64,000 nucleotides of DNA, taken from Acidimicrobiales bacterium. GTDB taxonomy: Bacteria; Actinomycetota; Acidimicrobiia; Acidimicrobiales; Palsa-688. The translations under genes were made by a program, and so were the position numbers. The DNA lies in NCBI GenBank assembly GCA_035533095.1, contig DATLUM010000096.1:1-64000 (forward strand). The letters are read 5' to 3'. The notes beneath the pieces are model-generated. The model was not told the origin of the DNA. It did no database searches and saw nothing but the letters and a program-made list of their open reading frames with translations. Shown here one piece after another: positions 14,802-55,742 of the stretch (its first letter is position 1; every line of letters starts with the position of its first letter).

Positions 14802-14854
14802 GGTTGTCCGTCCATACCCGCAACGGGGCCCGCTGCCCTGGTCGCCGAGGGCTC

Positions 14855-14892
14855 AAAAGAGGTTCGCGCCAATAATTCTGCGAACCCCTCTA
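14855..14892 (-). terminator. lysS terminator; copy A of a recurring hairpin element
   Basis: On the minus strand: GAGGGGTTCGC, a short loop containing AGAATTATTGGC, then GCGAACCTC and TTTT. The stem (one bulged base) plus U-tract is a good intrinsic terminator 35 bp after the lysS stop. The loop sequence recurs at 55155-55199. Confidence 0.8.
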
Positions 14893-14926
14893 GGGCGGTG
14901 CTTCCGCTCCGGCCGTACCTTGGCCG

Positions 14927-16336
14927 TCAGTCGCGCTCCTGCTCTGGGCGCATGGTCGGGAAGGCGATCACGTCGCGGATGGCCTCGGCGCCCGAGAGCA
15001 ACATGGCCAGCCGGTCGATCCCGATACCCAGCCCGCCGGTTGGCGGAAGGCCGTACTCGAGCGCACGCAGGTAGTCCTCGTCGACGACCATGGCCTCTTC
15101 GTCGCCGGCGGCCTTCTCCGCGGCCTGCGCTTCGAAGCGGGCGCGTTGCTCGTCGGGGTCGACCAGCTCGCTGAACGCGTTGCCCAGCTCCCGCCCGGCG
15201 ACGATCGGTTCGAAACGCTCCACGTAGCCCGGCCGGCTGCGATGGTCACGCGACAGAGGTGAGACCTCCTTCGGGTAGTCGAGGACGAAGACCGGTCCCC
15301 ACAGGGCATGCTCGGTGGTCTTCTCGTAGATCTCGAGGATCAGCTTGCCGGGTCCCCAACCGGGATGTGGCTCGACGCCGGCGGACTCGGCGACCTTGCG
15401 CAGCTCGTCGATCGGGGTGTCGAGATCGACCGTCACACCGGCGTGCTCTTCTATCAGCGATGTCATCGTGGCGCGCTTCCAGGGGACCGCCAGGTCAAGC
15501 GGCCTGCCTGCGTACGTCAGGGACGTGGTGCCCAGCAGGTGCTGCGCGGCGCCGGCGACGAGGTTCTCGGTGAGGGCCATCATGTCGGTGTAGTCCGCGT
15601 AGGCCTGGTACAGCTCGAGCATTGTGAACTCGGGGTTGTGGCGCGGGGAGATCCCCTCGTTGCGGAACACCCGGGCGATCTCGAAGACCCGCTCGAAGCC
15701 TCCGACGACGAGCCGTTTGAGGTAGAGCTCCGGCGCGACGCGCAAGTACAGGTCGAGGTCGAGCGCGTTGTGGTGGGTGACGAACGGCCTCGCTAGCGCG
15801 CCTCCGGGGATCGGATGGAAGACGGGGGTCTCGACTTCGAGGAAGCCGCGGTCCTCGAGCCAGGTGCGGATCCACGAGATGAGCTCGCTGCGCAGGGCGA
15901 GGGTCGCGCGCGACTCCTCGTTGGCCCACAGGTCGGCGTAGCGCTGCCTGTAGCGCATGTCGACGTCCGTTATCCCGCGCCACTTGTCGCCGAACCCGCG
16001 GCGCGCTTGCGCCAGCAGGGTCCACTCGGCCACCTTCACCGACAGCTCGCCGGTCTTGGTCCTCACGACCTCTCCCGTCGCTCCGATCCAGTCACCAAGC
16101 GAGAGGTGCACGAACCCTTCGAAGTCAGCGGTCCATTTCGCGCCGGCGAAGAGCTGGATCGACCCGGTCGGATCGCGCAGGGTCCCGAACGCCAGCTTTC
16201 CCATCTCGCGTCTCAGCATCAACCGGCCGGCGACGGTCACCATCGCACCGGTCTCCGCGCTGGCAGGCAGGTCCGCGTAGCACGTCGCGAGGTCGGCCGC
16301 CGTAGCGTCCGGGTCGAAGCGGTAGGGGATGCTCAT
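14927..16336 (-). CDS. lysS: Lysyl-tRNA synthetase, class II
   Basis: 469 residues. An N-terminal OB-fold anticodon-binding domain (about 35-125, [20 protein letters not shown]) precedes a class II catalytic core with motif 1 around [20 protein letters not shown], motif 2 region [20 protein letters not shown], and motif 3 [19 protein letters not shown]. It charges tRNA-Lys in the cytoplasm. The ATG at 16336 overlaps the coaX stop by 4 bp (ATGA), continuing the coupled run nadB-nadC-coaX-lysS. A hairpin with a U-tract follows it. Confidence 0.98.
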
Positions 16337-34110: not shown

Positions 34111-34122
34111 TCCTGAACCTCT

Positions 34123-35343
34123 TTAGGACCGAACGCGCGCGCCCGGCGCAAATGACACCGGCAGGTGCTTGATCCCGTTGATGAAGTTCGACTGCAGCCG
34201 CTCCGCGGGTCCGGCCGGAGCGAGGCCAGGCATGCGGTCCATCAGGTGCTGGAACATGACCTTGATCTCGAGACGGGCGAGGTTCGCCCCCAGGCAGAAG
34301 TGCGGGCCGCCGCCGCCGAACGCCATGTGGGGGTTGGGGTCGCGCCCGATATCGAAACGGTCGGGGTCCTCGAATACCGTCTCGTCACGGTTGGCCGCCG
34401 CGTGGAAGAACACCACCTTGTCACCGGCCTTGATCTGCTGGCCGCCGAGATCGAAGTCGGTCACCGCCTGCCGGCGGAAGTTCATCACGGGCGACACATA
34501 CCTGAGCATCTCCTCGACGGCCGAGTCGAGAAGACGGCGATCATCCAGCAGCCGCTTCCATTGATCGGGGTTGTCGAAGAAGGCCTGCATGCCGCCGGCC
34601 ATCAGGTTTCGCGTCGTTTCGTTGCCCGCGACCGCGAGCAGCAAGAAGAAGAGCTCGAGTTCCAGTTCGGACAGACGCTCGCCCTCGACCTCAACGTGCG
34701 TGAGAGCGCTCATGAGGTCCTCGTGAGGGTCGGCCCGCTTGCCGGCGAACAGCTCGGCCGCGTAGGCGTACAACTCCATCGCTGCCTGAGAGGCCTGGTC
34801 GGCGGTGATGCCGTATTCGGGGTCCTCGCTGCCGACCATGCGGTTGGACCAGTCGAAGACGCGGTGACGGTCCTCGCGCGGTACACCCATCAGTTCGGCG
34901 ATGACGATCAGGGGGAGTTCGGCGACCAGATCGGTCACGAAGTCCGCCGTGCCCGACTCGATCACGCCGTCGATGATCTCGTCCGCGGTCTCGTGAATGC
35001 GCTGCTCGAGCTGGGACACCATGCGCGGGGTGAAGCCCTTGTTCACGAGCCGGCGGTACCGCGTGTGCAGCGGCGGGTCCATGTTGAGCATCATGAGCTG
35101 CTGCTGGGCCAGCTCCTCCTCCGGGAGGTCCCAGATGAAGACCGCCTTCAACGCTGAGGAGAAGCGCTCGTAGTCGCGGTTCACCGCGACGCAGTCGGCG
35201 TAACGGGAGACCGCCCAGAAGCCGGGCCCATTCGCCTCGTCCTGCCACACCACGCCGCGCCGGCGCAACGACGCCAGGTACTCGTAGGGAACCCCCGAAA
35301 CGTACGCAGACGAGTCAGTGAGATCGACCAAGGAAGCCGTCAT
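34123..35343 (-). CDS. Cytochrome P450 monooxygenase
   Basis: 406 residues. I-helix AGNETTRNLMAGG (about residue 244), ExxR segment EEMLRYVSPVMNFRRQAV, heme loop FGGGGPHFCLGANLARLEIK. The HMAFGGGGPHFCLG form and the GIKHLPVSF ending are typical of actinobacterial CYP125/142-like enzymes. It is the second P450 of the window and differs well from the first. It converges on the GDPD gene with a 12-bp gap. Upstream on the same strand is an acyl-CoA ligase (61 bp), so lipid or steroid side-chain oxidation is plausible. Confidence 0.93.
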   Translation of the reverse strand: MTASLVDLTDSSAYVSGVPYEYLASLRRRGVVWQDEANGPGFWAVSRYADCVAVNRDYERFSSALKAVFIWDLPEEELAQQQLMMLNMDPPLHTRYRRLVNKGFTPRMVSQLEQRIHETADEIIDGVIESGTADFVTDLVAELPLIVIAELMGVPREDRHRVFDWSNRMVGSEDPEYGITADQASQAAMELYAYAAELFAGKRADPHEDLMSALTHVEVEGERLSELELELFFLLLAVAGNETTRNLMAGGMQAFFDNPDQWKRLLDDRRLLDSAVEEMLRYVSPVMNFRRQAVTDFDLGGQQIKAGDKVVFFHAAANRDETVFEDPDRFDIGRDPNPHMAFGGGGPHFCLGANLARLEIKVMFQHLMDRMPGLAPAGPAERLQSNFINGIKHLPVSFAPGARVRS

Positions 35344-54816: not shown

Positions 54817-55196
54817 GACTCAACCAGTTCCTAACGGGCTCCCCCTAAAGAGGGCCACCCCCCCAAAGTGGTGCGCGAACACTACAACACGGTTTCATCA
54901 GCGGATGATCGTCGGGTTCCGCCCAGTGGGAGCGGTGCAATTCAGGCAAAGCCCTTCATTTGCGGGCCAATTACTACGCCGCTGGCGAGAAGTCGCGCGA
55001 AGTCGAGACCGGAAAAGTAGAAGCCGCTTCCTGTCAGCTCGACGGAAGAACCCCTCTTGCCGGCGAATGCGAGGACCGCCTGACATGACTCCGGACGCGA
55101 CCGCACCCGGGCCGGGGGCCCGGGTGCGGTGCAAGGCAGGAACGGTGGCTTGCTAGAGCGGTCCGCGCCATCGGTGCAGCAATTCTGCGAACCTCT
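54817..55196. other. 380-bp intergenic region upstream of the ABC importer
   Basis: No convincing gene. It should hold the promoter of the importer operon (minus strand) and contains two hairpins (55100-55130 and 55155-55196) that end transcription of the membrane-protein gene at 55197. The part 54880-55000 is less GC-rich than the coding DNA. I could not assign a clear -35/-10 pair. Confidence 0.6.
55100..55130. terminator. Strong hairpin, 14-bp stem
   Basis: ACCGCACCCGGGCC and its exact complement enclose GGG. It lies 66 bp after the stop of the membrane-protein gene at 55197 and is followed by no U-tract. Confidence 0.75.
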
Positions 55197-55199
55197 TTA
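55155..55199 (-). repeat. Copy B of the recurring hairpin element
   Basis: On the minus strand, TAAAGAGGTTCGCAGAATT, then a loop and GGCGCGGACCGCTCT. The 13-mer GGTTCGCAGAATT and the closing TGGCGCG are shared with copy A at 14855-14892. The stop codon TAA of the gene at 55197 is the first part of this copy; pairing is weaker than in copy A. Confidence 0.7.
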
Positions 55200-55742
55200 G
55201 ACGACCTGACGGCGACCCGTCCCAACTCCCGATCTGCGGCTGTAACCCGACCGGCGGCTGAACCCCCAGTAGATCGGAGCGACCATCGACGTGATCGCCA
55301 GGATCGCTCCGACGATGATGAGGAAGATCCCGTAGCCACTGCCTATCCCGAGCGGGTGGGAGAAGGTCGAAGGCTGCGCGACGACCACGATGCCGAACAC
55401 GAGGGCCACGATGCCGAGAAAGCTCATTCCGCCCCGGCCGGCTCCAGGGATCGATCCGACTGCGAGCAGCAGTGCCCCGTAGACCAGCTCGATGTAGCCC
55501 ATCAGCTGCGTCTGCATGGAGCCGGCGACGCTGACGTGCTCGGAGGTGACGTGGCTGTTGATGCCGGTTCTGGCAAGGGCGATCCCGCCCAGGACGACGA
55601 AGACGATTCCGAGGATGATGGCAATGATTTGCGCGGGGCTCCACGGCTGCCTTTCGACGGCAACCGATCGGCTCTGGTATGCGGTTTGACCCTCGGCGTA
55701 TTGGTCGCCGGGGACTGCGGTTGGTGGGTAACGCTCGGCCAT
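55197..55742 (-). CDS. Four-span membrane protein of unknown function
   Basis: 181 residues. A hydrophilic N-terminus of about 35 residues (MAERYPPTAVPGDQYAEGQT) is followed by four hydrophobic spans (AQIIAIILGIVFVVLGGIAL, LMGYIELVYGALLLAVGSIP, FLGIVALVFGIVVVAQ, YGIFLIIVGAILAITSMVAP) and an Arg-rich tail. It resembles DUF4383-like small membrane proteins but I am not sure of the family. A short hydrophobic protein gene lies just upstream on the same strand. Confidence 0.7.
   Translation of the reverse strand: MAERYPPTAVPGDQYAEGQTAYQSRSVAVERQPWSPAQIIAIILGIVFVVLGGIALARTGINSHVTSEHVSVAGSMQTQLMGYIELVYGALLLAVGSIPGAGRGGMSFLGIVALVFGIVVVAQPSTFSHPLGIGSGYGIFLIIVGAILAITSMVAPIYWGFSRRSGYSRRSGVGTGRRQVV

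Follow-up and report, generated by a model that had tools for sequence, protein, structure and literature searches.

A small palindromic repeat with TA ends in fixed register with stop codons in an Acidimicrobiales genome

Small palindromic repeats and the place of the new element

Several families of small repeats are spread through bacterial genomes; those known as bacterial MITEs are short and have inverted repeats and terminal TA (PMC2229807). RUP and Correia/NEMIS are non-autonomous, shorter than 200 bp and intergenic, with terminal inverted repeats, TA ends and transcripts that form long stem-loops; the ends of RUP match IS630-Spn1 (PMC2229807), and RUP is enriched between convergent genes (PMC3049150). 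ERIC/IRU, from enterobacteria, is a small imperfect palindrome with TA ends, intergenic and transcribed (PMC2229807). As for Streptococcus pneumoniae, its BOX repeat encodes the stop codon of 36 genes with no clear truncation, and its SPRITE repeat is terminator-like and enriched between convergent genes (PMC3049150).

The element described here was first noticed as two copies, A and B, in the window, namely the whole stretch of 64,000 nucleotides analysed from an Acidimicrobiales bacterium. It resembles RUP and Correia/NEMIS in being non-autonomous, small and intergenic, with inverted-repeat ends and TA termini; unlike them, it measures 85 bp, it is palindromic almost throughout, and its outer stem differs between genera. 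Also, in contrast to RUP and its match with IS630-Spn1, no IS with matching ends was found for it among the resident IS630-type transposons. The likeness with ERIC/IRU, a small imperfect palindrome with TA ends, is one of description and not of alignment, and ERIC/IRU is longer (127 bp versus 85 nt). Like BOX, the element supplies stop codons, and like SPRITE and RUP it is common between convergent genes; unlike BOX and SPRITE, its stop codon stands at one fixed position on either strand, with no U-rich tract after it. ERIC/IRU is not known to start on stop codons.

Regarding other palindromic families, REP/BIME sequences, which go with RAYT, are short extragenic palindromes near gene 3' ends; the element differs from them in its TA ends, in its 85-nt two-tier hairpin, and in residing in a genome without a Y1 transposase match. 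The MIRUs of mycobacteria are small too and insert where there is a stop codon, and they sit between co-transcribed genes, in one direction; the element, instead, is nearly symmetric and found most often between convergent genes. It forms a new family within the kind that includes BOX, SPRITE and RUP. What sets it apart is that stop codons fall in a fixed register on either strand, and that length and internal loop are conserved although the stems change.

Copy number, anatomy and distribution

The genome searched (3.44 Mb in 142 contigs, 97% complete) contains about 40 copies of the element, A and B among them, plus a few half copies. With up to two mismatches, the 16-base core AGAGGTTCGCAGAATT had 23 matches, versus none for the reversed control; the palindrome AAGAGGTTCGCAGAACCTCTT, with up to three mismatches, had 21 versus none, at somewhat fewer distinct sites, since a symmetric copy is matched once per strand. 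With a covariance model built on the outer stem and loop, 43 hits were obtained at E <= 10, weak ones among them and with symmetric copies counted on either strand. As is typical of MITEs, the copies are non-coding, shorter than 200 bp, numerous and dispersed, and their flanks have no common sequence save one 19-base match.

The preliminary description of the window had quoted two sequence blocks shared by A and B and, as the loop-proximal AGAATT is kept while the middle varies in length, had taken them for related interspersed elements and not chance terminators: both blocks are present, within a few bases of where they had been placed, and the number of copies in the genome bears the relationship out. 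Covariance-model searches of the kind that it had proposed, in the genome and in relatives, retrieved further copies in the former and members in other genera. The conserved loop that it had singled out is a real shared motif, but it is actually the internal loop of a longer structure of 85 nt, and A and B lack the inner hairpin of that structure. Finally, the third fragment suspected at the stop codon of the P450 gene is probably a remnant, given that CTAAAGAGGTTC matches one arm (Table 1); its TAA is the stop codon of that gene, and it has no significant fold (z = 0.2 versus shuffles).

Table 1. Element copies and adjoining genes in the window, followed by members and candidates in other genera. 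The E values of copies A and B are partly by construction, as the core covariance model was built from 14 sequences that include both.
Feature	Position or genome	Strand	Score or remark
Copy A, shortened element (inner hairpin lost)	14854-14893	minus	47.9 bits, E 7e-9; RNA fold z = -3.3
Class II aminoacyl-tRNA synthetase (lysS-like), upstream of copy A	14927-16336	minus	
Probable remnant, single arm CTAAAGAGGTTC	34115-34126	minus	exact 12-base match to one arm
Cytochrome P450 gene, ends in probable remnant	34123-35331	minus	
Copy B, shortened element	55153-55200	minus	58.7 bits, E 8e-12
Small protein, family unassigned, TAA stop from copy B	55197-55742	minus	no Pfam match
L067	G014		78.7 bits; in the training set of the full-form model
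L090	G014		52.5 bits; outside the training set
L069	G001		47.9 bits; outside the training set
L088	G007		25.6 bits; plausible but weak

The full element, taken as the founding form, is 85 nt long and almost wholly self-complementary, with the arrangement CTAAAGAGGTTCGC-AGA-ATTG-CCT-(17-bp hairpin)-CAC-CAAT-GGC-GCGAACCTCTTTAG. The outer stem of 13-14 bp consists of two terminal inverted repeats, CTAAAGAGGTTCGC and GCGAACCTCTTTAG, whose arms of 12-14 bp pair in the full copies, and it encloses a 3x3 internal loop (AGA/GGC), a 4-bp stem (ATTG/CAAT), a second 3x3 loop and the 17-bp inner hairpin. Full copies of 85 nt are L042, L046, L045, L050 and L054; L042 folds with -58.7 kcal/mol, compared with -26.2 for shuffles.

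Other copies are cut down to palindromes of 26-27 bp, and most copies in the genome have no conserved inner part, with the minimal ones retaining the stem alone. The commonest short form, GGTTC-GCA-GAACC, would derive from a deletion between GAA repeats, and the 26-bp perfect palindromes (L058, L059 and L062) from one between CGC repeats. Copies A and B, which read CTAGAGGGGTTCGCAGAATTATTGGCGCGAACCTCTTTTGAG and CTAAAGAGGTTCGCAGAATTGCTGCACCGATGGCGCGGACCGCTCTAG on the minus strand, are medium forms, and their internal deletions differ. Copy A follows the stop codon of the lysS-like gene at a distance of 33 nt and lies upstream of a polyprenyl synthetase gene, while bases 2-4 of copy B (TAA) are the stop codon of the small-protein gene. 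Among 32 copies with comparable arms, positions 5-12 pair arm to arm more than in shuffled pairings (p = 0.0075 for pairs, p = 0.003 for double changes); such covariation may come either from selection or from hairpin-templated mutation.

As for relatives, the strong members recovered with a full-form covariance model belong to two further genera within the family, G014 and G001 (Table 1); L067 had first been detected with an earlier model built from the window's genome only. The relatives of other genera have one or two copies each, of 84-85 nt, in which TCGC-AGA...GGC-GCGA or close variants are kept; their outer stems differ in sequence yet still pair, most clearly in L067 and L090, and their gene contexts differ. 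With the same model no element was found in most genomes of the family, and the covariance model detected none outside the family in 158 genomes of the order. The element family is probably old, and expanded in the window's lineage. Other matches, L068 (G009), L070 (G012) and the weak L089 (G022), look like chance hairpins. A scan of 84,980 genomes, made with a loose structural pattern and possibly leaving out records close to the window, gave two hits, on Lachnospiraceae and Rhodobacteraceae contigs, which are taken as chance, the estimate being about four chance hits.

Stop-codon register and orthologous sites

Genes were called with a codon-usage gene finder trained on the 64-kb window. By flanking genes, 38 copies divide into 20 convergent, 14 codirectional and 4 divergent, and 35 of the 54 stop codons facing an element fall at exactly its bases 2-4; in nine convergent pairs, stops abut the element on both sides. 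At gene-free ends, bases 2-4 form a stop trinucleotide in 27 of 39 cases (and TA stands at bases 2-3 in 22 of the 39), therefore the stop belongs to the end of the element. Stop codon choice also changes: TAA is used by 20 of the 36 genes abutting a copy (56%) versus 8 of 132 elsewhere (6%; p = 2e-10), and TGA by 13 of the 36. Non-coding YTAR sites are scarce in this genome of 68% GC, and a third of those in the window are TAA or TAG stops, 4-bp convergent overlaps included; still, for the association with gene stops the positions of YTAR alone predict 8 of 23, versus the 29 of 38 copies found, so that something more must act, either retention at gene ends or additional targeting.

Other observations regard the surroundings of the copies. 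In asymmetric copies with one abutting gene, a hand count put about 10 of 13 stops on the side of the 5' arm, a possible orientation bias; two copies, L042 and L047, have a tRNA gene no more than about 65 nt away; the window contains 23 CTAG, versus about 188 expected from base composition, and 4 of the 23 are at TAG stops.

In other genera, the orthologous sites are empty. A dozen relatives have Era and DinG as a convergent pair, in each case without the element, and in close relatives the C-terminus of Era is LGY or LGF followed by TGA. The relatives examined also lack it at the orthologous convergent pairs, including QOR/DUF, PmbA/LAP and NMO/amidohydrolase. The orthologues of UvrD, DedA, the response regulator, NMO, the amidohydrolase, PmbA, CitE, QOR and lysS in G014 or G007 are without the element, and their ends coincide with those in the window's genome to the codon or nearly so; similarly, the element does not follow the lysS-like orthologues in two other genera. 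Since the sites are empty and the gene ends unchanged or nearly so, the elements are best read as insertions, in the window's lineage, at gene ends that were already there. That the element truncates genes was considered and rejected, as the C-termini equal those of the orthologues or differ by a few residues.

The QOR/DUF pair of G014 overlaps in TTAG where G000 carries a copy, and such an overlap is precisely what an unoccupied site for TA insertion would have to look like. In the window's genome, three convergent pairs without the element overlap by CTAG, CTAA and CTAG, and several orthologous pairs in G014 have spacers of 4-82 nt, with stops that do not overlap. At a different site, between a KSTD-like gene and its convergent neighbour (L133/L139), G014 has about six near-identical 12-base repeats (CACTTATTTGGA), and the window's genome has a copy of the element.

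Origin of the element and competing explanations

Probably, the hairpins derive by decay from a small mobile element, palindromic and non-autonomous: a bacterial MITE akin to RUP, Correia and ERIC, whose insertions took place at TA (YTAR), often in stop codons. Insertion would occur at TA dinucleotides in a YTAR context, with apparent duplication of TA (C-TA/AAGAGG...CCTCTT/TA-G), and this duplication would create an in-place stop codon at each end of the inserted copy. Insertion at overlapping convergent stops would be harmless because both genes would retain a stop, and its product would be the stop-to-stop elements. The inner hairpin would then be lost through deletions between short direct repeats, GAA...GAA leading to the 27-bp form and CGC...CGC to the 26-bp perfect palindrome, and the outer stems would persist, possibly as insulators or terminators of converging transcripts.

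The evidence for TA consists of its presence at bases 2-3 of gene-free ends and of the TAA excess at abutting genes, with a comparison that runs across genera and not within a genus. Longer direct repeats at the element ends are weakly enriched (6 versus 2.2 expected, p = 0.017), too weak a signal for long target-site duplications to be retained, and one that speaks neither for nor against a duplication of TA. Some points speak against insertion at TA: the TGA of 13 of the 36 abutting genes would not be directly obtainable from it; the TGA of Era in all relatives examined implies that the copy there would need a TAA-to-TGA reversion or some other mechanism; and, given the spacers in G014, the stop-to-stop copies at those pairs would need an overlap in the ancestor of the window's lineage. 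Against a MITE, the terminal stem bases differ between genera, unlike the usual TIR.

Transposition of such a MITE would occur in trans, by a DDE-type (IS630-like) enzyme absent or unassembled in this genome. Three different IS630-type transposons (DDE_3) are resident, L155 (contig C100), L156 (C68) and L157 (C71), each of about 1.2 kb with CTAG on both sides; all carry other TIRs, hence the element is not a MITE of these, and no autonomous partner with matching ends was found among the IS630-type transposons of the 97%-complete genome. An autonomous transposon that shares the ends of a MITE is usual and not required, and none is known for SPRITE.

A second explanation, which is doubtful, is a lineage-specific terminator or 3'-end RNA structure, in which the hairpin starting from the stop codon would be selected as a bidirectional terminator or as a protector of mRNA 3' ends, with copying as the means of its spread. 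The position of 20 of 38 copies between convergent genes fits this role, as do the stops abutting the stem at one fixed distance, the stem pairing maintained through some compensatory changes, the retention of the stem alone in minimal copies, and the fold of copy A, better than shuffles on both strands. However, the fold of copy B is no better than shuffles, 4 copies lie between divergent genes, most genomes of the family have no element, the copied inner-hairpin sequence indicates mobility, and hairpin-templated mutation could also produce the arm covariation. Moreover, A and B do not have the G+C-rich stem followed by a U-run of an intrinsic terminator: both are absent from the terminator scan, no T-run follows them, with only TTT/TTTT near the base, nor are terminator-like sites in excess. 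Termination could account for the retention of copies at gene ends, and such a role is plausible but, for the lack of a U-tract, unsupported.

It is unlikely, instead, that the element is a mobile hairpin recognised by its folded shape (84-85 nt, AGA/GGC loop, free stem), entering specifically at stop codons and replacing the stop-to-stop space between convergent genes, to which it would give a shared transcript end.

Quite improbable is an element of the REP/RAYT type, or another kind of single-strand hairpin, mobilised by a Y1 HUH transposase through recognition of the folded strand with the AGA/GGC loop. Recognition of structure would let the stems vary and conserve the internal loop and total length from genus to genus, as observed; on the other hand, TA is found at both ends, there are a few different stems and not one REP head sequence, and the search for the Y1 transposase (PF01797, Y1_Tnp) had no match in the 97%-complete genome, while it was positive in E. 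coli and other controls. The initial proposal of a mobile REP-like repeat survives in part: the element behaves like a mobile repeat, but it is not a REP in the strict sense, as no Y1/RAYT transposase was detected and its termini look like those of TA-flanked MITEs.

A structured regulatory RNA family that happens to sit in 3' UTRs is highly improbable: the covarying 85-nt structure with conserved loop nucleotides does occur in at least three genera, but it lacks a consistent neighbour gene, with contexts that differ in other genera, its conserved inner part is lost from most copies, it has no match outside the family in the 158 genomes of the order, and an Rfam search of six loci matched only tRNAs at E up to 1. 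Integron attC sites were also considered, for the nearby stop codons and the folded recognition, and set aside, because the copies are dispersed and form no arrays, and in other genera the core triplets of attC are not conserved.

In conclusion, the element adds a small, probably mobile repeat to a GC-rich lineage that has been little studied, apparently unrecorded before in the searches made here. It illustrates with unusual clarity how a repeat can occupy a single register on stop codons, in association with a different stop codon choice, and it would make how such repeats turn into gene-end signals a testable question.
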